DNA from: Pseudomonadota bacterium
GTDB taxonomy: Bacteria > Pseudomonadota > Gammaproteobacteria > Burkholderiales > Burkholderiaceae_C
Direction of reading: 5' to 3'
DNA: 64,000 nt
Assembly: GCA_021816585.1 (NCBI GenBank)
Contig: JAKAXL010000003.1
Span: 1 to 64,000, forward strand
Shown: positions 4,015-62,019 of the stretch, piece by piece
How positions within the stretch are numbered: position 1 is the stretch's first letter
Layout: each line of letters starts with the position of its first letter
Program-made: the position numbers and the translations under genes
The notes under the pieces: generated by a model
What the model saw: only the letters and a program-made list of their open reading frames with translations
Told to the model about the DNA's origin: nothing
Databases searched by the model: none

Positions 4015-7248
<3,234 letters not shown>

Positions 7249-47063: not shown

Positions 47064-48515
47064 TCAGTCCAGCCCGTGGCGCCTGCGGTACGCGCCGAAC
47101 ATGTCGTCGATGCTCGGTTCGTCCGGGGTGCACGGCGAGGCGATTCGCGTGATGTTCAGGAAGTGCTTGTAGTTCAGATTATCAGAGATGCTGTTGCGAC
47201 CCCAGGTCCCGCAACCCATCGACAGCGAGAACGGCAGTCCGTTGTCGAAACTGCCGCCGGTGGCGAAGCAGTGCGCCTGGTTGACGATCACGCGGCAGGC
47301 CGGCATGCCCAGGCCCAGTTGCATTGCGCGCTCGGGCCGCTGCGAATGCAGGCCGATCGAATGCCCGGCCCCCTCGTGCGCGTAGATGGCGCGCACGATC
47401 TGCTGCGCGTGCTCGAAATCGCGCGCGCGGTACACGGTGAGCACCGGCGACAACTTCTCCCCCGAGAACGGGTGGTCGTGGCCGACCCCGCTGTCCTCGA
47501 CCATGAGAAAGCGCGCGGTCTCGAATCGCGGCCCCTGCAGCCCCGCCAGCGCGGCGATCACCGGCGCCGCCTTCGCGGTCACCGCCGGCGACAGCTTGCC
47601 CGACGGCCACATCGTCTGCTGCAGGCGCTGCTTCTGCGCCGCATCGAGCAGCACGCCGCCTTCCGCGGCGAGCGCCTGCAGCATCGCGTCGTACATCGCG
47701 TCGACGATCACCACGCTGTTCTCGGAGGAGCAGCTGGTGGCGTTGTCGAAGGTCTTGGAGCGGCGGATCTTGTTCGCCGCCTGCGCCGCGTCGGCCGTCT
47801 CGTCGACGATCACCGCGACGTTGCCCGCGCCGACCCCGATCGCCGGGGTGCCGCTTTCATAGGCGGCGCGCACGTTGTTCTGCGAGCCGGTGACCACCAC
47901 CAGGTCGACCTGGCGCATCAGTTCCAGGGTCGCGGCCTTGCTCACCGGCGCCGGCAGCTGCTGCACCAGGTCGCGCGGCGCGCCCACGCGCTCGAGTTCG
48001 TCGCCGATGTAGCGCAGCAGCAGCGTGCTGGTGGTGTAGCCCTTCGGGGACGGCGACAGGATGATCGCGTTGCGCCCCTTCAGCGCATTGAGGATCTTGT
48101 TGGCCGGGGTGGCGGCCGGATTGGTCGACGGCGTGACCGCGGCGACCACGCCGACCGGGCGGGCGATCTCGATCACGCCCTTGGCCTTGTCCTCGGAGAT
48201 CACGCCGACCGACCTGCGTCCGCGCAGGTCGCGCAGCAGCCCGAGGGTCTTGCGGTGATTCTTGATCACCTTGTCCTCGACATTGCCCAGTCCGGTGTCG
48301 GCGACCGCCAGTTCGGCCAGCGCGCGGTTGCGCGCGGGCTCCATGATGGCCCAGCCGACGGCCAGCACGACCTCGTCGACCTGCTCCTGGGTGAAGTTGT
48401 CGTAGGCGCGCTGCGCCTCGCGCGCGCGCGCCACGCATGCGGCGACCTGGCTGCGCACCGTGTCGGCGGCCGTGGCCGCGGGGTTGGCGGAGGGGGTGGA
48501 AGTGCTCATGTCCAT
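47064..48515 (-). CDS. sauS: CoA-acylating sulfoacetaldehyde dehydrogenase (SauS-like)
   Basis: In sulfoacetate catabolism SauS reduces sulfoacetyl-CoA to sulfoacetaldehyde with NADPH, releasing CoA. The 483-residue aldehyde-dehydrogenase-fold protein has the CoA-acylating type Cys loop FDNATSCSSENSVVIVD (Cys262), VVAAVTPSTNPAATPANK, GNVAVIVDETADAA, and a C-terminal HCFATGGSFDNGLPFSLSMGCGTWG region shared with SauS and acylating acetaldehyde dehydrogenases. Ribosome site GAGGAA precedes ATG 48515. Xsc, Pta and the ligases nearby support the assignment. Confidence 0.85.
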   Translation of the reverse strand: MDMSTSTPSANPAATAADTVRSQVAACVARAREAQRAYDNFTQEQVDEVVLAVGWAIMEPARNRALAELAVADTGLGNVEDKVIKNHRKTLGLLRDLRGRRSVGVISEDKAKGVIEIARPVGVVAAVTPSTNPAATPANKILNALKGRNAIILSPSPKGYTTSTLLLRYIGDELERVGAPRDLVQQLPAPVSKAATLELMRQVDLVVVTGSQNNVRAAYESGTPAIGVGAGNVAVIVDETADAAQAANKIRRSKTFDNATSCSSENSVVIVDAMYDAMLQALAAEGGVLLDAAQKQRLQQTMWPSGKLSPAVTAKAAPVIAALAGLQGPRFETARFLMVEDSGVGHDHPFSGEKLSPVLTVYRARDFEHAQQIVRAIYAHEGAGHSIGLHSQRPERAMQLGLGMPACRVIVNQAHCFATGGSFDNGLPFSLSMGCGTWGRNSISDNLNYKHFLNITRIASPCTPDEPSIDDMFGAYRRRHGLD

Positions 48516-48577: not shown

Positions 48578-49399
48578 TCAGGCGACCAGGTCGGCCGCCG
48601 CGTCCTGCGCGGTGGCGCGCGAGCGCCGCGCCGCCGGCGCCGGCGCCGGAATCATCTCGGCGATCGCCGCGGCGGTTTCGCGCAGCTGCGGGAGGTGGCG
48701 CATCAGCATGTCCATGTCGCAGCGCGCCACCGGCGCCTGCACCGCCACCGCGCCCCAGGCGCGGTAGGCATCGCGCATCACCGGCACCGCGATCGACACC
48801 AGGCCCTGGATGAACTCCTGGTCGTTGATGCCGATGCGCCGGCGCCGCGTCTCGGCGAGATCCTGGCGCAGTCGCGCGGCGTCGGTGATGGTGCGCTCGG
48901 TCATCTTGCGCAGCGGCAGCGAGTCGACGATGCGGTTGCGCATCGCCGCCGGCTGCAGGCTGAGCAGCAGCTTGCCGCTGGAGGTGCAGTGGATCGGCAC
49001 GTGCGAACCCGGTTGCAGGTGCATGCGCAGCGGGGATTCGGTCTCGACCCGGTCGAGGTAGACGATCTGGTCGCCGTCCAGCGCGGTCAGGTTCACCGTC
49101 TCGCCCAGGCTCTCGCCGAGCTTGCGCAGCACCGCATGGCGCGCCGTCGCCGGCCCCGTGTGCATCAGCACCGACACGCTCATCTGGCGCACCCGCGGAC
49201 CGCATTCGTAGCCCTGGCCGTCGAGATTGCGCACCACCAGCTGGGCGGCGGCCAGGGTCTTCAAGATGCGATGCACGGTCTGCTTGGGCAACTGCAGGCC
49301 GTCGGCGATCTGCATCAGGCTCATCGATTCGGCGCTGCTGAGCAGTTCGAGTACGCGAAACGCGCGCACCGCTGCGGCGTTGGACTGGTTCGAGGTCAT
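48578..49399 (-). CDS. sauR: IclR-family regulator (SauR-like)
   Basis: The 273-residue product has the IclR winged helix (VRAFRVLELLSSAESMSLMQIADGLQLPKQTVHRILKTLAAAQL in parts, about 12-60) and a GAF-like effector domain with GETVNLTALDGDQIVYLDRVETESPLRM, PIHCTSSGKLLLSLQP and GINDQEFIQGLVSIAVPV. It is divergent from the first ligase gene and upstream of sauS, matching the sauR-S-T-U layout known from Cupriavidus necator. It probably controls both directions. I use ATG 49399. A TTG 21 nt upstream is possible. Confidence 0.85.
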   Translation of the reverse strand: MTSNQSNAAAVRAFRVLELLSSAESMSLMQIADGLQLPKQTVHRILKTLAAAQLVVRNLDGQGYECGPRVRQMSVSVLMHTGPATARHAVLRKLGESLGETVNLTALDGDQIVYLDRVETESPLRMHLQPGSHVPIHCTSSGKLLLSLQPAAMRNRIVDSLPLRKMTERTITDAARLRQDLAETRRRRIGINDQEFIQGLVSIAVPVMRDAYRAWGAVAVQAPVARCDMDMLMRHLPQLRETAAAIAEMIPAPAPAARRSRATAQDAAADLVA

Positions 49400-49505
49400 G
49401 GCGGATCGACGACTGGGCAACGTGGACTGCGGGATTGCAGGGCGGCCGGCTCCGGCGAAACAGGCCCGGCGACGAAGCGCCGAAGCCTACGCGGACAACT
49501 GTATC

Positions 49506-49526
49506 CATTTCTACGAGCGAGAAACG
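49506..49526. promoter_or_regulatory. Candidate IclR operator upstream of sauT copy 1
   Basis: CATTTC (49506-49511) and GAAACG (49521-49526) flank a 9-bp centre. The equivalent site before copy 2 (52924-52944) is a perfect CGTTTC/GAAACG dyad, although the surrounding bases have diverged. It adjoins the sauR -10-like box, which suits autoregulation. Confidence 0.45.
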
Positions 49527-49586
49527 ACACCAGGCGGTCCCGAAAAGTGCTTGGATGCAAAATTCCGTGGCGATTTCGAGCGATTG

Positions 49587-51291
49587 GCAAGAAAACGGGA
49601 CTGTTCGGTGGCATTTTTTTCCATAAATTGCCACCAGACCCTGCGCGGCGGCCGCCACGGACCGTGACGACGCAGGGCTCGCGCCGAGGCGCCCACAAGA
49701 CCAGACCGTTCACGAAGCCAGCCATGAATCGCCCCGAGAACCCCTTCCCGCAAGCCCAGGCGCAGCTGCCCGCGTACAGCGGAGAGCTGCTGAGCATGCA
49801 GCAGCTGGTGGATGCCAATGCGCTGCGCGACCCGCAGGCGACGTACTTCATCGCCGCCGAGACGGGGCGCTCGATACGTTTCGAGGAGCTGCGGCGCGTG
49901 TGCGTCGAGCTCGGCGCGTACTTCGCGGCGCAGGGTCTGGAGCCGGGGGATGTGGTGTCGCTGTTCCTGCCCAACGGGCTGGAGGCGGCGATGCTGATCC
50001 TGGCCACGATGTACCACGGCATGGTGGTCAATCCGATCAACCTGCTGTCGCAGCCGGCGCAGCTGAGCTACATCCTGGAGCACAGCGAGACGCGGCTGCT
50101 GCTGACGGTTCCCGAGTACGAGGCGCAGCTGCGCGAACTGGCCGCGCAGCTGCCGCGAGAGCTGCGGGTCGAGAGCATCGCCGACGCCGGCTGGCTGGAT
50201 CGGGCGCGCGGCGATGCCGCGGCGCCGCGCCGCGCCGCGCAGCTCGACGACCCCGCGCTGCTGATGTACACCTCGGGCACCACCGGGACGCCGAAGGGCG
50301 TGCTGCTCAGCCACGGCAACCTGTGCGCCAACGGCATCAACATCAGCCGCGAGCACCAGCTGGGTCCGGCCGACCGCGGGCTGGCGCCGCTGCCGCTCTA
50401 TCACATCAACGCGCTGGTGGTGAACCTGGTGACGCCGCTGGTCCACGGCGGCTCGCTGGTGATGCCGCCGAAGTTCTCCGCCACGAACTTCTGGCGCGAC
50501 GCGCTGCAGTTCGAGTGCACCTGGGTCAACGCGGTGCCCACGATCATCGCCTACCTGATCCAGTCGGCGCCCGAGGAGCTGGGGCCGCGGCAGCTGTCGC
50601 ACATCCGCTTCTGCCGCTCGGCGTCGGCCGCGCTGCCGCCGGAGCACCACCGCGCCTTCGAGGCGCGCTTCGGGGTCGACATCATCGAGACCATGGGGCT
50701 GACCGAGACGGCCGCGCCGTCGTTCAGCAACCCGGTGCAGCGCGAGCTGCGCAAGATCGGCAGCATCGGCAAGCCCTCGGGGACGCAGGCGCGGGTGGTC
50801 GGCGCCGACGGCGGCGTGCTCGGCCAGGGCGAGGTGGGGGAGATCCAGCTGCGCGGAGGCAACGTCATGCGCGGCTACCTGAAGAACCTGGTGGAGACCG
50901 CGAAGGCCTTCACCGCGGACGGCTGGTTCCGCACCGGAGACCTGGGCTATCGGGACGCCGACGGCTACTACTTCATCACGGGGCGCGCCAAGGAGCTGAT
51001 CATCAAGGGCGGGGAGAACATCTCGCCGCGCGAGATCGACGAGGCGCTGCTCAAGCACGCCGCGGTGCTGGAGGCCGCGGCGGTGGGGGTGCACGACAGC
51101 AACTACGGGCAGAACATCGAGGCCTACCTGGTGCTGCGCCCCGGGGCCGAACTGCACGAGCACGAGCTTCGCGAACATTGCCTGCAGCACCTGGGGCGCT
51201 ACAAGACCCCGCGCGCCTGCCACATCGTCGACGACCTGCCGCGGGGCCCGTCGGGAAAGATCCAGCGCCTGAAGCTGCCGGACCTCCCCGC
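49587..51291 (+). repeat. 1705-bp direct repeat, copy 1 (sauT plus upstream 137 bp)
   Basis: Bases 49587-51291 match 53005-54709 at a constant offset of 3418 with no difference that I found. Reading frames in all registers across both copies give the same proteins. Before 49587 and after 51291 the two copies remain alignable but diverge. Confidence 0.9.
49607..49635. promoter_or_regulatory. Long dyad upstream of sauT copy 1
   Basis: GGTGGCA (49607-49613) and TGCCACC (49629-49635) flank a T/A-rich 15-bp centre with CATAAAT, which may include the -10 element. It is repeated exactly at 53025-53053. Confidence 0.5.
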
Positions 51292-51328
51292 ACAGGCGGT
51301 GCGCGCGTCGTTGCGACTGCACCCCTGA
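49724..51328 (+). CDS. sauT: AMP-forming CoA ligase, sulfoacetate-CoA ligase-like (SauT), copy 1
   Basis: SauT activates sulfoacetate with ATP and CoA to sulfoacetyl-CoA, AMP and pyrophosphate. The 534-residue ANL enzyme has the P-loop MYTSGTTGTPKG (181-192), ETMGLTETAAPSFSNP, TGDLGYRDADGYYFITGRAKELIIKGGENISP (split across the hinge) and catalytic Lys512 in GPSGKIQRLKL. Context (sauR, sauS, xsc, pta) gives the substrate. The family itself is broad. The last residues (ASLRLHP) differ from copy 2 (RSLQLTQA); the rest appears identical. Confidence 0.8.
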   Translation: MNRPENPFPQAQAQLPAYSGELLSMQQLVDANALRDPQATYFIAAETGRSIRFEELRRVCVELGAYFAAQGLEPGDVVSLFLPNGLEAAMLILATMYHGMVVNPINLLSQPAQLSYILEHSETRLLLTVPEYEAQLRELAAQLPRELRVESIADAGWLDRARGDAAAPRRAAQLDDPALLMYTSGTTGTPKGVLLSHGNLCANGINISREHQLGPADRGLAPLPLYHINALVVNLVTPLVHGGSLVMPPKFSATNFWRDALQFECTWVNAVPTIIAYLIQSAPEELGPRQLSHIRFCRSASAALPPEHHRAFEARFGVDIIETMGLTETAAPSFSNPVQRELRKIGSIGKPSGTQARVVGADGGVLGQGEVGEIQLRGGNVMRGYLKNLVETAKAFTADGWFRTGDLGYRDADGYYFITGRAKELIIKGGENISPREIDEALLKHAAVLEAAAVGVHDSNYGQNIEAYLVLRPGAELHEHELREHCLQHLGRYKTPRACHIVDDLPRGPSGKIQRLKLPDLPAQAVRASLRLHP

Positions 51329-51465
51329 AGCAGGCAGCTCACGCCGCAGCATCGCGAAAGGAGTCCATCCCGCCCACCGCCGTTCACAAACCTTCGTGTC
51401 CACCGAACAAGCCGCGCCACAAGCGGTCCGGGGAGCGTGCAGTGCCAACCTTCCATGAGGAGACA

Positions 51466-52863
51466 ATGATGACTACGAGTAGCAACGATCTGGCTGCACA
51501 GGCAGCCATCGGCGCGCGAATCGATCGCCTGCCGTTGAGTCGCGTCACATGGGGCATCGTGATCCTGGCCGGGCTGGCCTGGCTCACCGAGGCCCTGAGC
51601 ATCGGTTCGCTGGGGGTTTCGATCCCGGCGCTGAAAGAGACCTTTCACATCTCTCCGGGGCAGATCGGGCTGCTCGTCGCATCGCAGACCTTCGGCGTGG
51701 TGATCGGCCTGATTCCGGCCGGGACCCTGGCGGATCGCATCGGACGCAAGAAGGTGCTGATCTACGGAATCGTCTGGTACAGCCTGTTCACCTTCGCCTG
51801 CGGCCTCGTGTCGAGCTACACGGAACTGCTGGTCGTGCGCTTCCTCGCCGGGCTCGGCATGGGCGCCGTGTTCCCGCTGCCGTACGCGATCGTCTGCGAG
51901 CTCGTTCCGAAGACCCGCCGCGCCGCGTGCAACGGGGTCATGGACGCGTTCCTGTCGCTCGGCTATTTCATCGCGCCCCTGCTCGGCTTCCTGGTCTTCC
52001 CGGCCTTCAGCCCGGACGACTCGTGGCGGGTGTTCTTCGCCATCGCGGCGTCGCCGATCCTGTATGCGCTGCTCATCCACTTCAAGCTGCCCGAGAGCCC
52101 GCGCTGGCTGGCCCGCAAGGGCCGCCGGGAGGAAGCCGAGCGCGCTCTGCAGGGGCTGGAAGACGCGACGCGGCGCGCCATCGGGCGCGAACTCGATCCG
52201 CCGGCGGCGGTCAGCGTGCCCAACGGTTCCTCGATCGGAGTCGACTCGTCGCAGCTGTCGCAGATCTTCGGCCCGCGTCTGATCAAGCGCACGGTGGTGC
52301 GGACGCTTTCCGCGACCGGGGTGTTCTTCATGTTCTACGTGGTGATGACGTACATGCCGACGATCTTCACCGAGCAGGGCTACAAGCTGCCGGCGTCGCT
52401 GCTGTTCACGGCGATCATCACCGGCGCGGCGCTGCCGGGCAAGCTGCTCAACGGCTACATCGGGGAATTCCTCGGCCGGCGAGCCGCCTACGTGATCTTC
52501 ATGGGGCTTGCCGGGGTCGGGGCTCTGATGTTCGGCGTGGCGGGTTCGCTCGTCGGCGCCATCGCCTATGCCTGCGTCATGTCCTTTTTCGGCACCGGGG
52601 CCTTTCCGGCGATGAAGATGTCATTGGCCGAACAGTATCCCTTGCAGCTGCGCGCGACCGGGGCCGCCACCGTCGAAGCCCTTTCGCGCCTGCTCGGCGG
52701 AGTCGTGGGCGGCTACGCGATGCCGGTGCTGCTGCACCGCTTCGGCACGGAAGCCTCGTTCGTGACCATTGCGGTCGTGGCGTTCATCGGCGTGGCGCTG
52801 GAGCTGACGATGAGCATGGAGACGCGCAACAGGACCGTGGAAGAGCTCGAGCACGCGGTCTGA
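51466..52863 (+). CDS. MFS transporter, candidate sulfoacetate importer
   Basis: The 465-residue product has 12 hydrophobic spans and AAHS/sugar-porter-like signatures: LTEALSIGSLGVSIPALKETF, IPAGTLADRIGRKKVLIYG, RFLAGLGMGAVFPLPYAIVCELVPKTRR and ESPRWLARKGRREEAERAL. It lies between the two ligase copies, the position taken by the transporter SauU in Cupriavidus, but I cannot tell whether it is a true SauU orthologue or a functional substitute. ATG 51466 (MMTTSSNDLA) follows GAGGAG. Confidence 0.82.
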   Translation: MMTTSSNDLAAQAAIGARIDRLPLSRVTWGIVILAGLAWLTEALSIGSLGVSIPALKETFHISPGQIGLLVASQTFGVVIGLIPAGTLADRIGRKKVLIYGIVWYSLFTFACGLVSSYTELLVVRFLAGLGMGAVFPLPYAIVCELVPKTRRAACNGVMDAFLSLGYFIAPLLGFLVFPAFSPDDSWRVFFAIAASPILYALLIHFKLPESPRWLARKGRREEAERALQGLEDATRRAIGRELDPPAAVSVPNGSSIGVDSSQLSQIFGPRLIKRTVVRTLSATGVFFMFYVVMTYMPTIFTEQGYKLPASLLFTAIITGAALPGKLLNGYIGEFLGRRAAYVIFMGLAGVGALMFGVAGSLVGAIAYACVMSFFGTGAFPAMKMSLAEQYPLQLRATGAATVEALSRLLGGVVGGYAMPVLLHRFGTEASFVTIAVVAFIGVALELTMSMETRNRTVEELEHAV

Positions 52864-52868
52864 CGCTC

Positions 52869-52913
52869 GCGCGTGGGCCGCTCGCGCCGGGTCGGGCGCG
52901 GCGGCCCACGCGC
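52869..52913 (+). terminator. Strong hairpin after the MFS transporter gene
   Basis: A perfect 13-bp GC stem (52869-52881 with 52901-52913) encloses a 19-nt loop, 5 nt after the stop codon. It has no T-run. It probably ends or stabilises the sauT1-MFS transcript before the control region of copy 2. Confidence 0.5.
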
Positions 52914-52923
52914 GCAGGCATGT

Positions 52924-53053
52924 CGTTTCTTCGGGCTGGAAACGGGCGGTGATTGTCTCGAAAAGTGCGTGAATGCAAAATTCCGTGCCAAGTTCGAGTG
53001 ATTTGCAAGAAAACGGGACTGTTCGGTGGCATTTTTTTCCATAAATTGCCACC
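52924..53053. promoter_or_regulatory. Control region of sauT copy 2 with two dyads
   Basis: A perfect CGTTTC/GAAACG dyad lies at 52924-52944. The exact GGTGGCA-N15-TGCCACC dyad seen before copy 1 is at 53025-53053. Bases 52959-53004 match copy 1 at 39 of 46 positions; from 53005 on the match is complete. Confidence 0.5.
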
Positions 53054-54709
53054 AGACCCTGCGCGGCGGCCGCCACGGACCGTGACGACGCAGGGCTCGC
53101 GCCGAGGCGCCCACAAGACCAGACCGTTCACGAAGCCAGCCATGAATCGCCCCGAGAACCCCTTCCCGCAAGCCCAGGCGCAGCTGCCCGCGTACAGCGG
53201 AGAGCTGCTGAGCATGCAGCAGCTGGTGGATGCCAATGCGCTGCGCGACCCGCAGGCGACGTACTTCATCGCCGCCGAGACGGGGCGCTCGATACGTTTC
53301 GAGGAGCTGCGGCGCGTGTGCGTCGAGCTCGGCGCGTACTTCGCGGCGCAGGGTCTGGAGCCGGGGGATGTGGTGTCGCTGTTCCTGCCCAACGGGCTGG
53401 AGGCGGCGATGCTGATCCTGGCCACGATGTACCACGGCATGGTGGTCAATCCGATCAACCTGCTGTCGCAGCCGGCGCAGCTGAGCTACATCCTGGAGCA
53501 CAGCGAGACGCGGCTGCTGCTGACGGTTCCCGAGTACGAGGCGCAGCTGCGCGAACTGGCCGCGCAGCTGCCGCGAGAGCTGCGGGTCGAGAGCATCGCC
53601 GACGCCGGCTGGCTGGATCGGGCGCGCGGCGATGCCGCGGCGCCGCGCCGCGCCGCGCAGCTCGACGACCCCGCGCTGCTGATGTACACCTCGGGCACCA
53701 CCGGGACGCCGAAGGGCGTGCTGCTCAGCCACGGCAACCTGTGCGCCAACGGCATCAACATCAGCCGCGAGCACCAGCTGGGTCCGGCCGACCGCGGGCT
53801 GGCGCCGCTGCCGCTCTATCACATCAACGCGCTGGTGGTGAACCTGGTGACGCCGCTGGTCCACGGCGGCTCGCTGGTGATGCCGCCGAAGTTCTCCGCC
53901 ACGAACTTCTGGCGCGACGCGCTGCAGTTCGAGTGCACCTGGGTCAACGCGGTGCCCACGATCATCGCCTACCTGATCCAGTCGGCGCCCGAGGAGCTGG
54001 GGCCGCGGCAGCTGTCGCACATCCGCTTCTGCCGCTCGGCGTCGGCCGCGCTGCCGCCGGAGCACCACCGCGCCTTCGAGGCGCGCTTCGGGGTCGACAT
54101 CATCGAGACCATGGGGCTGACCGAGACGGCCGCGCCGTCGTTCAGCAACCCGGTGCAGCGCGAGCTGCGCAAGATCGGCAGCATCGGCAAGCCCTCGGGG
54201 ACGCAGGCGCGGGTGGTCGGCGCCGACGGCGGCGTGCTCGGCCAGGGCGAGGTGGGGGAGATCCAGCTGCGCGGAGGCAACGTCATGCGCGGCTACCTGA
54301 AGAACCTGGTGGAGACCGCGAAGGCCTTCACCGCGGACGGCTGGTTCCGCACCGGAGACCTGGGCTATCGGGACGCCGACGGCTACTACTTCATCACGGG
54401 GCGCGCCAAGGAGCTGATCATCAAGGGCGGGGAGAACATCTCGCCGCGCGAGATCGACGAGGCGCTGCTCAAGCACGCCGCGGTGCTGGAGGCCGCGGCG
54501 GTGGGGGTGCACGACAGCAACTACGGGCAGAACATCGAGGCCTACCTGGTGCTGCGCCCCGGGGCCGAACTGCACGAGCACGAGCTTCGCGAACATTGCC
54601 TGCAGCACCTGGGGCGCTACAAGACCCCGCGCGCCTGCCACATCGTCGACGACCTGCCGCGGGGCCCGTCGGGAAAGATCCAGCGCCTGAAGCTGCCGGA
54701 CCTCCCCGC
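53005..54709 (+). repeat. 1705-bp direct repeat, copy 2 (sauT plus upstream 137 bp)
   Basis: This is the second copy of 49587-51291, same orientation, offset 3418. A synonymous A/G difference at 51292/54710 marks the right end of identity, and the codons beyond it are diverged yet alignable. Confidence 0.9.
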
Positions 54710-54749
54710 GCAGGCGGTGCGTCGATCCCTGCAACTCACACAGGCCTGA
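53142..54749 (+). CDS. sauT: AMP-forming CoA ligase, sulfoacetate-CoA ligase-like (SauT), copy 2
   Basis: The 535-residue product is the same as copy 1 to residue 527 and then ends RSLQLTQA. It has its own copy of the control region and heads a likely operon with the TctCBA-type transporter. An in-frame extension upstream to 52953 is open but crosses the operator-like dyads, so I keep the ATG at 53142. Two ligases with the same catalytic sequence under separately diverging upstream elements suggest dosage or differential control rather than different substrates. Confidence 0.8.
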   Translation: MNRPENPFPQAQAQLPAYSGELLSMQQLVDANALRDPQATYFIAAETGRSIRFEELRRVCVELGAYFAAQGLEPGDVVSLFLPNGLEAAMLILATMYHGMVVNPINLLSQPAQLSYILEHSETRLLLTVPEYEAQLRELAAQLPRELRVESIADAGWLDRARGDAAAPRRAAQLDDPALLMYTSGTTGTPKGVLLSHGNLCANGINISREHQLGPADRGLAPLPLYHINALVVNLVTPLVHGGSLVMPPKFSATNFWRDALQFECTWVNAVPTIIAYLIQSAPEELGPRQLSHIRFCRSASAALPPEHHRAFEARFGVDIIETMGLTETAAPSFSNPVQRELRKIGSIGKPSGTQARVVGADGGVLGQGEVGEIQLRGGNVMRGYLKNLVETAKAFTADGWFRTGDLGYRDADGYYFITGRAKELIIKGGENISPREIDEALLKHAAVLEAAAVGVHDSNYGQNIEAYLVLRPGAELHEHELREHCLQHLGRYKTPRACHIVDDLPRGPSGKIQRLKLPDLPAQAVRRSLQLTQA

Positions 54750-54842
54750 GCCGGCACAGGGAACGGCCCAGGCCCTTCCCCGGGAATGTCCCGGGAACTC
54801 AGCCGTAGGTACCCTGATACAACGCCAAGAGGAGACATCACC

Positions 54843-55847
54843 ATGGTTCACACACAAGGGATCTCATCCCGACGCACCGCGGGATTCGCGCGGACCTGCT
54901 GGGGCTCGCGCCTGCGCAAGGCGGCTGCCGCCATCGGCGTGGCCGCGATGCTGCCGCTGGCGCACGCGGCTTATCCGGATCGTCCGATCAACTTCATCGT
55001 GCCGTGGGGCCCGGGCGGCGGCGCCGACCTGCTCGCGCGCACCTCGTCGAAGATCATGCAGAAGCAGCTCGGCGTGTCGCTGCCGGTGATCAACGTGCCG
55101 GGCGCCGACGGCATGGTGGGCATGACCAAGCTGCTGACCTCGCCGGCCGACGGCTACAACGTCGCCGTGCTGATCGGCGACACCTTCGCGCTGGTGTCGG
55201 GGCAGCATCCGCCGTTCACCCTCAAGCAGATCATCCCGCTGGCCATCATGATCCAGCAGCCCTCGGGCTACTGGGTCAACGCGAAGGGCCCGTTCAAGAA
55301 CTGGCAGGACGTGGTCGCCGCGGCGAAGAAGCGCACGCTGACGGTGGCCGTGACCGGCTTCGGCAGCGCCGACGACATCACCACGCGCTACCTGGCGCAC
55401 AAGCTGGGCATCAAGCTGGAGTCGGTGCCCTTCGCCAAGCCGGGGCAGCGCTACAGCTCGATCCTGGGCGGCAACGCCGACATCGTGTACGAGCAGACCG
55501 GCGACGTGCGCAGCTACTTCGACTCGGGCAAGTTCCGCCCGGTGCTGTTCTTCTATCCGAAGCCGGTGCCGATTCCCGTGTTCTCGAAGGTTCCGGTTTC
55601 GGCGCAGCTGGGCCTGGACGTGACCCTGCCGCAGTTCCGGGCCATCGTGGTGAAGGCCGGCACCCCGCCGGACCGCGTGAAGAAGCTCGCCGACGCGCTG
55701 CAGAAGGTCGCGCAGACGCCAGCGTTCAAGGCCTACCTGAACCAGCAGTACGCCGACCCCAACAGCTACGTGCCGATGCAGGACGCCGACGCCTTCATGT
55801 CCAACTGGCTCAAGCAGGCCGAGATGACCATCGCGGCATCGAAGTGA
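54843..55847 (+). CDS. tctC: Tripartite tricarboxylate transporter substrate-binding protein (TctC/Bug family)
   Basis: The 334-residue product has a long signal peptide (cleavage after about residue 42, LAHA-AYPDRPINF) and Bug-family motifs: YPDRPINFIVPWGPGGGADLLAR, NVPGADGMVGMTKLLTSPADGY, and NADIVYEQTGDVRSYFDSGKFRPV. Such proteins bind carboxylates for the TctAB membrane pair. The linked ligase suggests sulfoacetate or another sulfonated carboxylate as ligand. ATG 54843 follows AAGAGGAG. Confidence 0.88.
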   Translation: MVHTQGISSRRTAGFARTCWGSRLRKAAAAIGVAAMLPLAHAAYPDRPINFIVPWGPGGGADLLARTSSKIMQKQLGVSLPVINVPGADGMVGMTKLLTSPADGYNVAVLIGDTFALVSGQHPPFTLKQIIPLAIMIQQPSGYWVNAKGPFKNWQDVVAAAKKRTLTVAVTGFGSADDITTRYLAHKLGIKLESVPFAKPGQRYSSILGGNADIVYEQTGDVRSYFDSGKFRPVLFFYPKPVPIPVFSKVPVSAQLGLDVTLPQFRAIVVKAGTPPDRVKKLADALQKVAQTPAFKAYLNQQYADPNSYVPMQDADAFMSNWLKQAEMTIAASK

Positions 55848-56450: not shown

Positions 56451-58004
56451 ATGAACGTGATGCACGATCTGGCGCTGGGCATGATGCATGTGTTCCAGCC
56501 CCACGACCTGCTGATGCTGGTCGTCGGAATCCTGGTGGGCATGCTGGTGTCGATCATGCCCGGGCTGGGATTCGTGATGGGCGTGATCCTGGCGTTGCCG
56601 TTCACCTACAAGATGCCCATCGAGCCGGCGGTGATCCTGCTGACGGCGATCTATTTCTCCGGCACCTACGGCGGCTGCTTCACCACCATCCTCTACCGCA
56701 TTCCCGGCGAGCCCAACGACGTTCCGCTGCTGTGGGACGGCTACACCATGGGCAAGCGCGAGGGAGCCGCCAAGCCGCTGGGCTGGGCGCTGGTGGCGGC
56801 GCTGATCGGCGGCCTGGTGTCGTCGGCCGTGATGGTGGCGCTGACCCAGCCGCTGACCGACGTCGCGTTGAAGTTCAACTCCGAGGACTATTTCGCCGCC
56901 ATCGTGTTCGGCCTGACCACGGTGGTCTCGCTGGCCGGCAAGTCGCTGGCCAAGGCCTTCATCAGCATGAGCCTGGGGCTGCTGGTGGCGTGCATCGGCG
57001 TCGACAGCATCTACGGCGTCAGCCGCTACACCTTCGGCGTGCCCATCCTGGGCGACGGCGTGCAGCTGGTCGCGGTGCTGGTGGGCATGTACGGCCTCGG
57101 CGAGGTGTTCAAGCGCATCGGCCAGGGGCTGGCGATCAAGGGCGCGCCAGGCGACGCCAAGCTCAAGGTGCAGACCAGTTTCCCGAAGCTGCGCGAGATC
57201 TGGGGCGTGCGCGGCGCGATCCTGCGCAGCAGCGCCATCGGCACGCTGCTGGGCGTGGTGCCGGGAGCCGGCGCCACCATCACCTCGTTCATCTGCTACG
57301 GCGTCGAGAAGCAGTACGGGCGCGAGCGCGCCAAGCTCGGCACCGGACATCCGAGCGGCATCGTGGCACCGCAGATCGGCTCCACGGCCTCGGTGGCCGG
57401 GCACCTGATCCCGATGCTCACGCTGGGCATCCCGGGCAGCGCGGCCACCGCGGTGATCCTGGCCGCCTTCCTGCTGCACGGCGTGCAGCCCGGGCCGATG
57501 CTGCTGTCGGATCCGAGCTCGCGTGTCACCGTCTACACCATCCTGGCGTCGATGTTCGTCGCGGTGATCGGCATGTGCCTGATCGGCTTCTTCTGGATCC
57601 GCCTGGTCGTGCGCGTGCTGCTGATTCCGCAGTACCTGCTCAATGCCATCGTCGTGCTGTTCTGCCTGGTCGGTGCCTATGCCGACCGCAACTCGATGTC
57701 CGACGTCTGGATGATCCTCATCTTCGGCGTGCTGGGCTACCTGTTCGAGAAGTACAGGTTCCCGATCTCCCCGATGGTGCTGGGGGCGATCCTGGGCCCG
57801 ATCGGCGAGTCCAACTTCATGCGCAGCATGGTCGTGCATCACAACGACTGGACCGCCGCCTTCACGCAGCCGCTGAGCGGAACCCTGCTGGCGATGTCGG
57901 CCTTCGCGGTGCTCTATCCGATGCTGCGCGACTTCCTGCACTGGCTGCGGCGCCGCGGCCGGCGCCCGGCGCTGGCCGGCGCGGCGCCGGGTCCGCAGGC
58001 CTGA
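56451..58004 (+). CDS. tctA: Tripartite tricarboxylate transporter large membrane subunit (TctA)
   Basis: The 517-residue product has about 11-12 hydrophobic spans and the TctA signatures GMLVSIMPGLGFVMGVILALP near the start, YFSGTYGGCFTTILYRIPGEPNDVPLLWDGY, and GTLLGVVPGAGATITSFICYGVEKQY with TLGIPGSAATAVILAAFLLHGVQPGP later. It begins one base after the tctB stop codon. With TctB and TctC it forms a complete secondary transporter. Confidence 0.92.
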   Translation: MNVMHDLALGMMHVFQPHDLLMLVVGILVGMLVSIMPGLGFVMGVILALPFTYKMPIEPAVILLTAIYFSGTYGGCFTTILYRIPGEPNDVPLLWDGYTMGKREGAAKPLGWALVAALIGGLVSSAVMVALTQPLTDVALKFNSEDYFAAIVFGLTTVVSLAGKSLAKAFISMSLGLLVACIGVDSIYGVSRYTFGVPILGDGVQLVAVLVGMYGLGEVFKRIGQGLAIKGAPGDAKLKVQTSFPKLREIWGVRGAILRSSAIGTLLGVVPGAGATITSFICYGVEKQYGRERAKLGTGHPSGIVAPQIGSTASVAGHLIPMLTLGIPGSAATAVILAAFLLHGVQPGPMLLSDPSSRVTVYTILASMFVAVIGMCLIGFFWIRLVVRVLLIPQYLLNAIVVLFCLVGAYADRNSMSDVWMILIFGVLGYLFEKYRFPISPMVLGAILGPIGESNFMRSMVVHHNDWTAAFTQPLSGTLLAMSAFAVLYPMLRDFLHWLRRRGRRPALAGAAPGPQA

Positions 58005-58086: not shown

Positions 58087-59049
58087 TCAGGTCTCGTCGT
58101 GCGTGGCGACCACCGACAGCGCCACCGAGGCCAGGCGCGCCGTCAGCGAGTCGGCGCGCGAGGTCAGCACCACCGGCACGCGCGCGCCCAGCACCAGCCC
58201 GGCGCACTCGCCGCCGCCGACATAGACGAAGCTCTTGTACAGCATGTTGCCGGCGTTGAGGTCCGGCACCACCATCAGGTCGCAGTCTCCGGCGCAGCGC
58301 GACTCGATGTGCTTGGTGCGCGCGGCCTGGGCCGAGAAGGCATTGTCGAATCCCAGCGGCCCCTCGACGATGGCGTCGCCGAAGCGGCCCTCGCGTCCCA
58401 GTCGCGCCAGCTCCTGCGCGTCCAGCGTGGCGGGGATCGCCGGATTGACCGTCTCCACCGCGGCGATCGCGGCGGCCTTCGGCGCCTGCACGCCGAGGCG
58501 GCGCAGCAGCCCCAGCGCATTGCCGAGGATGTCGATCTTCGATTTCAGATCGGGGGAGATGTTCACCACGCAGTCGGCCAGCGCCAGCAGCTTGTGGTAG
58601 CGGGGCAGGTCGAACACGAAGGCATGGCTGATGCGCGAATTGCCGCGCAACCCGGTGTTGCGGTCCACCACCGCCGACATCAGCTCGTCGGTGTGCAGCG
58701 AGCCCTTCATCAGCGCGCGCACGCTGCCGTCGCGCGCCAGTTCCACGGCCCGCGCGGCAGCCGCCGCGCCGGCGGCCGCGGTGTCGACGATCTCGAAGTC
58801 GCGCGCATCCACGCCGGCCTGCTGCGCCGCCTGCGCGATCAGCTGCGCGTTGCCCACCAGCAGCGGGTGGGCGATGGCGTCGTCGCGGATGCGCGCGGCG
58901 GCCTCCAGCGCCAGTGCGTCGCAGGGGTGCACCAGCGCGATGCGCGCCGGGGCGCGCGCGGCGAGGCTTCGCGCATGCTCGACCAGCGCGCGCAGGCGCG
59001 GGAAGTCGCTGTCGGCTGCGCTGTCGGCAGCCAGGGTAGGGGAGTTCAT
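58087..59049 (-). CDS. pta: Phosphate acetyltransferase (Pta, short form)
   Basis: Pta turns acetyl phosphate made by Xsc into acetyl-CoA. The 320-residue product is the catalytic-domain-only form of the phosphate acetyl/butyryltransferase family: IALVHPCDALALEAAARIRDDAIAHPLLVG, LMKGSLHTDELMSAV, RISHAFVFDLPRYHKLL, DIVEGPLGFDNAFS-like GDAIVEGPLGFDNAF, and DLMVVPDLNAGNMLYKSFVYVGG. It is downstream of xsc in the same direction. The family also contains butyryl and hydroxyacyl enzymes; the xsc linkage favours acetyl. Confidence 0.88.
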   Translation of the reverse strand: MNSPTLAADSAADSDFPRLRALVEHARSLAARAPARIALVHPCDALALEAAARIRDDAIAHPLLVGNAQLIAQAAQQAGVDARDFEIVDTAAAGAAAAARAVELARDGSVRALMKGSLHTDELMSAVVDRNTGLRGNSRISHAFVFDLPRYHKLLALADCVVNISPDLKSKIDILGNALGLLRRLGVQAPKAAAIAAVETVNPAIPATLDAQELARLGREGRFGDAIVEGPLGFDNAFSAQAARTKHIESRCAGDCDLMVVPDLNAGNMLYKSFVYVGGGECAGLVLGARVPVVLTSRADSLTARLASVALSVVATHDET

Positions 59050-59161: not shown

Positions 59162-60982
59162 TCAGACGTAGTCCTTGTACTTGTCGAGGAAGCGCACCGG
59201 CTTGCTCAGCGCGTCGCGGCGGAACGGGTCGCCCAGCTCGCGGGTGCACAGGATCTCGACCACGCAGGTCTTGCGCTCGTTCATCTGCATGTCCACCGCG
59301 CGCTTGAGCGCCGCGCCGACGTCCTCCAGGCGGTCGACCACGATGGCTTCCGAGCCCATCGAACGCGCGATCTGCGCGAAGCTGGGGTTGTCGAGCTCGC
59401 CGGCGACGAAGCGACGGTTGTAGAAGTCGACCTGGTTCTTCTTCTCGGCGCCCCACTGGCGGTTGTGGAACACCACCGCGGTGACCGGGATGTCGTGGCG
59501 CACGCAGGTCATGATCTCCACCATGCTCATCGCCCACGCGCCGTCGCCGGCGTAGGAGATCGCCGGACGGTCGGGCGCCGCCAGCTTGGCGCCGATGATG
59601 GTCGGCAGCGCGTAGCCGCAGTTGCCGAAGCTCATCGGCGCGAAGAAGCTGCGCGGCTCCTCGAAGCGCAGGTAGCTGTTGGCCACCGAGTTGATGTTGC
59701 CGATGTCGGTGGACACCATGGCACGCGGCGGCATGGCCTTTTCCAGCTCGCGCAGCACCTGGCGCGGGTGCAGGTACTCGCCGCCGTTGAAGGTCTTCTC
59801 CTTCTTGGCTTCCTCGATCATGTCGAGGCTGTAGGCGTCGCGCTCGTGGGTCCACGAGTCGAGTTCCTTCTCCCACGCTTCCTTTTCGGAGCGGATGGTC
59901 TGCGCGCGCTGCTCCTTGCTGGCGTCGCAGGCCAGCGTGCGGCCCTGCAGGCGCTGCGTGATGGCCTTCGCCGCGGCCTTCGCGTCGCCGTGGATGCCCA
60001 CGCTGATCTTCTTCACCAGCCCGAGGTTGGTGTGGTCGGCCTCGACCTGGATGATCTTGGCGTTCTTCGGCCAGTAGTCCATGCCGTGCTGCGGCAGCGT
60101 GCCGAAGGGGCCCATGCGCGAGCCCAGCGCGACCACCACGTCGGCCTGGGCGATCAGCTTCATCGCCGCCTTCGAGCCCTGGTAGCCCAGCGGGCCGGCC
60201 CACAGCGGGTGGCTGGCCGGGAACGCGTCGTTGCGCAGGTAGCCGGTGACCACCGGGGCACCCAGGCGCTCGGCCAGTTGCTTGCATTCCTCGACCGCGT
60301 CGCCCATGACCACGCCGCCGCCGGCCAGGATCACCGGGAACTTGGCCTGCGCCAGCAGTTCGGCCGCCTCGTGCAGGCTGTGCTCGCCGCCGGCGCCGCG
60401 CTCGACACGCATCGGGCGCGGGATCTCGCACTGGATCTCGCCGTAGAAATAGTCACGCGGAATGTTCAGCTGGGTCGGGCCCATTTCGCTGATCGCGCGG
60501 TCGAAGGCGCGCCCGGTCAGCTCGGCCATGCGCTTGGGGTTGACCACGTGCGCCTGGTAGCGCGTGAATTCCTGGAACATCGGCAGCTGGTTGGCTTCCT
60601 GGAAGCCGCCCAGCCCGATGCCCATGGTGCCGGTCTCGGGGGTGATCATGACCACCGGGCTGTGCGCCCAGTAGGCGGCGGCGATCGCGGTCACGCAGTT
60701 GCTGATGCCGGGGCCGTTCTGCCCGATCACCACGCCGTGGCGGCCGCTGACGCGCGCGTAGCCGTCGGCCATGTGGGCGGCGCCCTGTTCGTGCACCACC
60801 GGGATCAGGCGGATCCCGGCCGGCGCGAAGATGTCCATCGCATCCATGAAGGCCGAACCCATGATGCCGAAGATGTCGGTCACGCCGTTCGCGACCATGG
60901 TTTCGACAAAGGCCTCGGAAGGGGTCATTTTCTGCACGCCGGTGACGACCTTGCGGTTGTCGGCGGGGGTGGACTGGCTCAT
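59162..60982 (-). CDS. xsc: Sulfoacetaldehyde acetyltransferase (TPP enzyme)
   Basis: Xsc converts sulfoacetaldehyde and phosphate to sulfite and acetyl phosphate, the desulfonating step of taurine, isethionate and sulfoacetate pathways. The 606-residue TPP enzyme has MTPSEAFVETMVANGVTDIFGIMGSAFMDAMD, YARVSGRHGVVIGQNGPGISNCVTAIAAAYWAHSPVVMITPETG, and the TPP-binding GDGAWAMSMVEIMTCVRHDIPVTAVVFHNRQWG (segments only). ATG 60982 (MSQSTPADNRKVVTG) follows GGAGA. A near-consensus promoter lies 82 nt upstream. Confidence 0.95.
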   Translation of the reverse strand: MSQSTPADNRKVVTGVQKMTPSEAFVETMVANGVTDIFGIMGSAFMDAMDIFAPAGIRLIPVVHEQGAAHMADGYARVSGRHGVVIGQNGPGISNCVTAIAAAYWAHSPVVMITPETGTMGIGLGGFQEANQLPMFQEFTRYQAHVVNPKRMAELTGRAFDRAISEMGPTQLNIPRDYFYGEIQCEIPRPMRVERGAGGEHSLHEAAELLAQAKFPVILAGGGVVMGDAVEECKQLAERLGAPVVTGYLRNDAFPASHPLWAGPLGYQGSKAAMKLIAQADVVVALGSRMGPFGTLPQHGMDYWPKNAKIIQVEADHTNLGLVKKISVGIHGDAKAAAKAITQRLQGRTLACDASKEQRAQTIRSEKEAWEKELDSWTHERDAYSLDMIEEAKKEKTFNGGEYLHPRQVLRELEKAMPPRAMVSTDIGNINSVANSYLRFEEPRSFFAPMSFGNCGYALPTIIGAKLAAPDRPAISYAGDGAWAMSMVEIMTCVRHDIPVTAVVFHNRQWGAEKKNQVDFYNRRFVAGELDNPSFAQIARSMGSEAIVVDRLEDVGAALKRAVDMQMNERKTCVVEILCTRELGDPFRRDALSKPVRFLDKYKDYV

Positions 60983-61063
60983 CGCGCTGTCTCCGGTGGG
61001 GCTGGGTGGCTTCGGGCGGAATGGGTTAAAACGGTACGGAACATTCCATCGTTGGTGGGGCGA

Positions 61064-61092
61064 ACTATAGAAGGCGTGTCGCCGGGCGTCAA
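61064..61092 (-). promoter_or_regulatory. Sigma-70 promoter of xsc-pta
   Basis: On the reverse strand TTGACG (61092-61087), a 17-nt spacer and TATAGT (61069-61064) form a near-consensus promoter. Confidence 0.8.
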
Positions 61093-61099
61093 CAGCCGA

Positions 61100-61134
61100 T
61101 TTCGAAATCCGGTATATGATGTTTCGGAATCCGG
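61100..61134. promoter_or_regulatory. Tandem operator-like repeats between xsc and the second iclR gene
   Basis: TTTCGAAATCCGG (61100-61112) and TTTCGGAATCCGG (61122-61134) are direct repeats with one mismatch, 22 bp apart, about two helical turns. The first overlaps a perfect 12-bp palindrome GATTTCGAAATC (61099-61110). They sit immediately upstream of the xsc -35 box, as expected for an IclR-type activator or repressor encoded by the divergent gene. Confidence 0.6.
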
Positions 61135-61182
61135 AACGGCTTGCGACCTGCCGCATGTTCCGCGCCGACCACCGCCGCTGCC

Positions 61183-62019
61183 ATGAACCTCGCCGACCCC
61201 TCCGTTCCCGAACTCGAACCGCCCCCGGCGCCGGCCGCCTCGGACACCCCGCTGGCGCGCCTGTTCGGGCTGCTGGAGGCGGTGGCCGGGCGCGACCAGC
61301 CGTTCACGCTGCAGTCGCTGGCCCTCGAACTCGACCTGCCCAAGCCCACCGTGCACCGGCTGCTCGCGCAGCTCGAGCAGGCCTCGCTGCTGCAGCGCCA
61401 GGGGGATTCGCGGCACTACGCGGCCGGGCTGCGCCTGCGCCGGCTGGCCGAGAAGCTCATGCTCAACGACAGCTTCAACGGCGCGCGCCGCATGGTGCTG
61501 CGCTCGGTGGTGCAGGAGCTCGGCGAGAGCTGCAACATCACGGCGCTGGCCGGCAGCGAGGTGGTCTACCTGGATCGCGTCGAGACGGCCGCTCCGCTGC
61601 GTTTTTACCTGCAGCCGGGATCGCGCGTGCCGGTGCACTGCTCGGCCAGCGGCAAGCTGCTGCTGGCGCAGATGAAGCCGGCGCAGCGCCGGCGCCTGCT
61701 CGAGCATGTGCCGCTGGACGCCTACACGGCCAGCACCATCACCGATGCCGCGAGCCTGGAGCGCGAGCTCGACGAGGTGCGCGAGCAGGGCTACGCGCTG
61801 GACCGCGAGGAGTTCCTGCCGGGGCTGCTGTGCGTGGCGGTGCCGGTGCCGGCCGAGCCGGGGCGCCTGTCCAACCTGTGCGTCGCGGTGCAGGCCCCGG
61901 TGATGCGCCTGAGCGCGTCCAGCGCGCCGCAGGTGCTGCCGGCGCTGCGCCGCGCCGCCGACGCGCTGGCGCGCATCGAGGCCGATGCGATGCCGCGCCC
62001 GCAGCGGGCCGCGAGCTGA
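61183..62019 (+). CDS. IclR-family regulator of xsc-pta
   Basis: The 278-residue product has an IclR winged helix (PLARLFGLLEAVAGRDQPFTLQSLALELDLPKPTVHRLLAQLEQ across about 20-65) and an effector domain with GESCNITALAGSEVVYLDRVETAAPLRFYL, PVHCSASGKLLLAQMKP and DREEFLPGLLCVAVPVPAE. It is divergent from xsc with the tandem repeats between. It resembles the SauR-like protein in layout but is clearly a different sequence. The direction of control is not known. Confidence 0.88.
   Translation: MNLADPSVPELEPPPAPAASDTPLARLFGLLEAVAGRDQPFTLQSLALELDLPKPTVHRLLAQLEQASLLQRQGDSRHYAAGLRLRRLAEKLMLNDSFNGARRMVLRSVVQELGESCNITALAGSEVVYLDRVETAAPLRFYLQPGSRVPVHCSASGKLLLAQMKPAQRRRLLEHVPLDAYTASTITDAASLERELDEVREQGYALDREEFLPGLLCVAVPVPAEPGRLSNLCVAVQAPVMRLSASSAPQVLPALRRAADALARIEADAMPRPQRAAS

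Follow-up and report, generated by a model that had tools for sequence, protein, structure and literature searches.

Two probable sulfoacetate-CoA ligase genes with a base-identical interior and diverged, probably homologous ends in the draft genome of a bacterium related to Thiomonas

Sulfoacetate clusters and the locus under study

Among the closest described systems is the sauRSTU cluster for sulfoacetate use in Cupriavidus necator H16, which was reportedly presented by Weinitschke et al. in 2010. It has a one-gene MFS transporter, SauU (PMC12625764), and its SauR system responds to sulfonatoacetate (PMC7057948). In sponge symbionts, sauST occurs in hybrid clusters that include a tripartite tricarboxylate transporter (PMC12625764). 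Gene conversion and concerted evolution of duplicated prokaryotic genes are treated by Wang and Chen 2018 (PMC6053082).

The window, i.e., the whole stretch of 64,000 bp that was analysed, is contig 74 of 131 in a draft genome of 3.4 Mb with an estimated completeness of 93.6%, and its host bacterium is related to Thiomonas. The gene order is sauS, sauR, sauT1, sauU, sauT2, tctC, tctB, tctA, pta and xsc, the first two and the last two genes lying on the minus strand and the others on the plus strand. Two products score above NCBIfam equivalog cut-offs, namely SauS, an acylating sulfoacetaldehyde dehydrogenase (47064-48515, upper end approximate; NF047625 with 778.7 bits on 47067-48437, cut-off 600), and Xsc, a sulfoacetaldehyde acetyltransferase (59162-61156; TIGR03457 with 1038.4 bits, cut-off 676.4). 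The genes sauT, sauU, sauR, tctC, tctA and pta were assigned from Pfam family and context. The regulator encoded by sauR (48578-49420; PF01614, PF09339) is of the IclR type, as SauR of C. necator presumably is. Beside sauS and sauR lies sauT1 (49724-51328, 534 aa), whose product is a probable sulfoacetate-CoA ligase with the AMP-binding domains PF00501 and PF13193, followed by the gene for the MFS transporter SauU (51466-52863, 465 aa; PF07690), which matches the sauT-adjacent transporter of two relatives, G005 and G011, at 75-76%. The product of sauT2 (53142-54749, 535 aa) is the SauT1 protein with another C-terminus. Further along are tctC for the receptor of a tripartite tricarboxylate-type transporter (54786-55847; PF03401), tctA (56451-58004; PF01970) and the phosphate acetyltransferase gene pta (58087-59049; PF01515). 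Among the matches listed (25 of 103), no NCBIfam family reached its cut-off with sauT; the adjacency of sauS and sauT recurs in loci L051-L053. Sulfoacetate is well founded by context as the predicted substrate of the cluster, with the activity of SauT being putative. A strong, terminator-like hairpin without a T run follows sauU on the plus strand (52868-52914; fold of 52855-52930 with -54.8 kcal/mol, z -5.1), and sauT2 is therefore probably transcribed from its own promoter. Past xsc, a second IclR-type gene (61478-61908) is a diverged inverted paralogue of sauR (48722-49147, about 69% DNA identity) and sits at the same place in several relatives. The second IclR gene of the relatives was rejected as a candidate for SauR, its match of 40-43% being that of a paralogue.

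The genus set comprised 28 genomes including the window's own, G000; scoring covered ten sauT candidates in each of them, and the counts refer to the matches listed. A single sauT directly 5' of tctC was found in nine genomes (G002, G012, G013, G014, G017, G019, G021, G022 and G023), and sauT followed by sauU in G005 and G011, in which tctA had no match at E 1e-200. Both sauU and tctA are present in G000 and G006, the remaining 15 genomes gave short sauT matches only, and relatives of sauU at 49-50% lie on other contigs of G012 and G019. Two sauT copies occurred in G000 only, and this genome, at its estimated completeness of 93.6%, yielded no third one. The family-level search gave the same picture, as 26 of the 399 genomes matched at an E-value of 1e-130 or lower and two copies were again found in G000 only; it scored three candidates per genome, and a diverged second copy could escape it. 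Among the matches listed in both searches, no genome was found in which these positions are occupied by two sauT genes that have diverged, so an older paralogue pair is something that we infer. Thiomonas sp. FB-6 (L050, 84%) is a named relative with the same cluster, and the 11 loci L039-L049 (71-92%) belong to MAGs with contig names of the NODE type.

The nearest sister genome, G006, has a single visible sauT, which is cut off at codon 472 by the contig end. On its contig C8 the end of sauU adjoins pta (L119, 5227-5303) with no tctCBA between them, an order unlike that of the window, and contig C101 carries the end of tctC, tctB, tctA and then other genes. The relative positions of the tct block and of sauU-pta have therefore apparently changed. 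Contig C101 is doubtful and was used with caution, because its last 112 bases (L122, 3629-3740) are 100% identical to contig C39 of G000 (L195, 674-785), while the compared genes differ by about 5%; the identity is perhaps that of a chimeric contig end or of a recent transfer.

The exact repeat and its diverged ends

The two sauT genes share a direct repeat with an offset of 3,418 bp. Each repeat copy on the plus strand, 49587-51291 and 53005-54709, comprises a promoter region of 137 bp and the greater part of sauT1 or sauT2, respectively, and the two are equal at 1,705 of 1,705 bases with 0 mismatches. The run of identity is bounded precisely by these positions, so the base-identical copies of about 1.7 kb in the original prediction were recovered down to the same end bases. 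No other long near-identical pair of repeats was found in the window among the matches listed. Elsewhere in the window, diverged direct repeats at 4052-5187 and 5690-6780, with 68-73% identity in pieces, are perhaps two tandem paralogous genes.

An exact repeat of 1.7 kb is hard for short reads, and since the genome is a draft of 131 contigs, the zero differences between the copies may be partly an effect of consensus assembly. It could even be that differing sauT copies were collapsed into one consensus path that was used twice, so that the exact identity is unreal, but we regard this as improbable. Assemblers for metagenomes are built to yield a consensus, and the bulges that metaSPAdes collapses are larger than those collapsed by SPAdes (PMC8021871); however, the flanks with 84% identity stayed separate in the assembly, and the collapse should need very similar copies, so a recent homogenisation would still be required. 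If the junctions sauR-sauT, sauT-sauU, sauU-sauT and sauT-tctC are right, a linear chromosome using each of them once would read sauR-sauT-sauU-sauT-tctC, the other option being a separate sauT-sauU circle. On this reasoning the duplication itself is fairly safe and the exact zero less so.

Exact alignment of the copies together with their flanks, the check proposed alongside the prediction, placed related rather than unrelated DNA upstream of the repeat. The plus-strand flanks 49537-49586, which includes half of an operator-like pair, and 52955-53004 agree at 42 of 50 positions and at 39 of the last 46, the latter being the figure that had been predicted. Their local alignment score of 63 compares with maxima of 29 for a 300-base stretch and 23 for a 100-base stretch in 300 shuffles. 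Similarity beyond the flank is weak (18/32 at 49504-49536). In an alignment covering G006 and the nine tct-type genomes, the operator-like pair reads GTCCCG in 9/10 (GTCTCG in G013) and CGGGAC in 10/10, and it was not seen in G005 and G011 in the same alignment. The window has GTCCCG upstream of sauT1, GTCTCG upstream of sauT2 and CGGGAC in both places. Because the pair is conserved in the relatives, part of the likeness of the upstream flanks may be selected.

This conservation, together with the single copy in the relatives, would fit a simple, recent duplication of sauT that left sauU between the copies, in which the likeness of the flanks reflects shared regulatory sequence and chance. The downstream flank is also compatible with it when taken blindly, as its score of 23 does not exceed the shuffle maxima of 27-29. 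We nevertheless find a plain duplication quite unlikely, for two observations run against it. The non-conserved spacer 49551-49586 agrees at 29/36 positions between the two copies as opposed to 17/36 between sauT1 and G006 (14/36 with G022 and 13/36 with G002), and both copies end in complete but different sauT C-termini.

Downstream of the repeat, a mismatch at 51292 is followed by 11 equal bases (11/12), after which the 3' ends differ. According to the alignment, sauT1 has its own end at 51292-51328 and sauT2 at 54710-54749, both on the plus strand, and after a common VR the proteins finish with ASLRLHP and RSLQLTQA, respectively, before the stop. These aligned but different last codons had been anticipated, and beside nine single-copy relatives both are recognisable as sauT 3' ends. 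The two copies agree here at 24/36 positions, sauT1 and the relatives at 23-26/36, and sauT2 and the relatives at 25-30/39. The difference between the two 3' ends is thus about that between species, although the last 100 bases of the repeat are identical, and sauT1 and sauT2 look like two complete genes sharing one interior. An origin of sauT1 together with sauU from the type found in G005 and G011 was rejected for the interior, which matches the nine tct-type genomes at 80-82% versus 74-75% for G005 and G011 among the matches listed; the C-terminus of SauT1 likewise resembles the tct-type relatives and not G005 and G011.

Silent-site divergence from the sister genome

A jump in raw identity between the window's sauT and that of G006 was first doubted, as all relatives are more divergent in the N-terminal third, and silent sites were then compared. 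The dS between G000 and G006 is 0.475 in codons 1-180 and 0.145 in codons 181-472, a roughly threefold contrast. The best break lies at codon 176 (about position 50250 of the window), and 0 of 2000 shuffles were as extreme in a test that searches all breaks, whereas the Fisher p of 7e-7 for the cut at codon 180 is post hoc, the cut having been picked after viewing the profile. In four other pairs the observed contrast was reached by 86, 342, 97 and 348 of 500 shuffles. Of seven pairs among the other relatives, six lacked the contrast and G012-G019 (p 0.015) showed it in the opposite direction. Against outgroups, the 5' part of G000 or G006 was mildly more diverged in 10/10 pairs (e.g., 0.62 versus 0.44), with p<0.05 in 2/10, and so part of the excess between G000 and G006 may not be due to recombination.

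The tree of the 5' segment joins G000 and G006 as sisters (100/97) on long branches of 0.094 and 0.11. The 3' segment gives the two genomes short branches (0.01 and 0.024) in a tree that does not resolve their pairing. Most simply, the comparison would be between two paralogue types, separated on the common stem, in the 5' segment and within a single type in the 3' segment. The jump in the 5' segment could also come from horizontal replacement in G006 or G000. Divergence from G006 is uneven across the neighbourhood in general. The dS values of sauS (0.12-0.19), sauR (0.185), tctA, pta and xsc range over 0.12-0.23, with sauU (0.349, 181 codons) and tctC (0.025, 107 codons) as outliers. The unusually low silent divergence of tctC, with a dS of 0.025, concerns its 3' part (55523-55847).

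Homogenisation of older paralogues and comparison with known systems

We consider the homogenisation of older sauT paralogues by recombination to be the best reading and a reasonably probable one, because the ends on both sides look diverged but homologous, those sister genomes that carry sauT have one copy, and the comparison with G006 gives an independent sign of patching. The interior is far more alike (1,705/1,705) than the flanks (42/50 upstream and 24/36 downstream). We hypothesize that sauT1, with sauU, and sauT2, with tctCBA, would be paralogues whose origin or encounter dates to the shared stem of this species and G006, before the two split, and that each would have retained its own outer ends, i.e., the 5' flank, the last codons and the downstream gene. 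The direct copies would then have recombined, most simply by gene conversion of the RecA type, so that one 1.7-kb interior was recently replaced by the other, and the replacement would have halted on both sides where homology drops. Conversion as the event, its age and the truly exact identity of the copies are what we infer. A weak hint that sauT2 may have been copied over sauT1 comes from the upstream flank of sauT1, since it is nearer to that of sauT2 than to that of G006.

Direct repeats commonly recombine, and unequal crossing-over between sister chromosomes, with a sauT-sauU array that grew and then shrank, could have homogenised the interiors without non-reciprocal conversion. The copies, as direct repeats 3,418 bp apart, suit such a process, which would leave the outer and inner flanks as they were found. 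It needs at least two exchanges versus one for conversion, nothing else speaking specifically against it, and we hold it to be unlikely. Conversion and unequal exchange leave the same trace and are not told apart here. Of the gene conversion originally proposed, the homogenisation of older paralogues is therefore upheld by the diverged ends, the single-copy sisters and the silent-site jump, while conversion as the process is not separable from unequal exchange.

The geometry of a removable 3.4-kb unit is sound, and such a removal is possible judging by the layout of the repeats; losing one unit would give the order sauR-sauT-tctC, as in nine sister genomes. That sulfoacetate use is tuned by deletion or amplification of this unit, as was also proposed, is speculative. 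We think it very unlikely that the locus is a maintained recombination cassette, in which exchange between the sauT copies would reversibly loop out or multiply the sauU unit and so switch between uptake by tctCBA only and by sauU plus tctCBA, with conversion keeping the arms identical.

The case is a fresh instance of a known process and leaves general views unchanged. On a small scale, it cleanly illustrates how two transporter-ligase modules with the same probable substrate can be brought together in one cluster, the shared ligase being apparently homogenised, and it cautions that 'identical' paralogues of draft genomes require proof at the level of reads. A search by title in the literature on sulfoacetate or sauT, on Thiomonas sulfonates, on conversion or amplification and on assembly found no report of a duplicated sauT, and we do not claim its absence from print. 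As in the concerted evolution described in PMC6053082, paralogues of the same genome resemble each other more closely than would be expected from their flanks and history; unlike there, a single gene pair in a single genome is concerned, and the event is apparently recent, with no long-lasting pattern evident. The locus shares SauS, the AMP-binding ligase SauT, the MFS transporter SauU and an adjacent regulator with sauRSTU of C. necator H16 (PMC12625764, PMC7057948), and differs from it in having sauT twice and tctCBA as a second transporter. The sauST genes with a tripartite tricarboxylate transporter that PMC12625764 describes for sponge symbionts are arranged as in the nine relatives with one sauT, whereas the window, unlike those symbionts, has both types of transporter, each behind its own copy of sauT.
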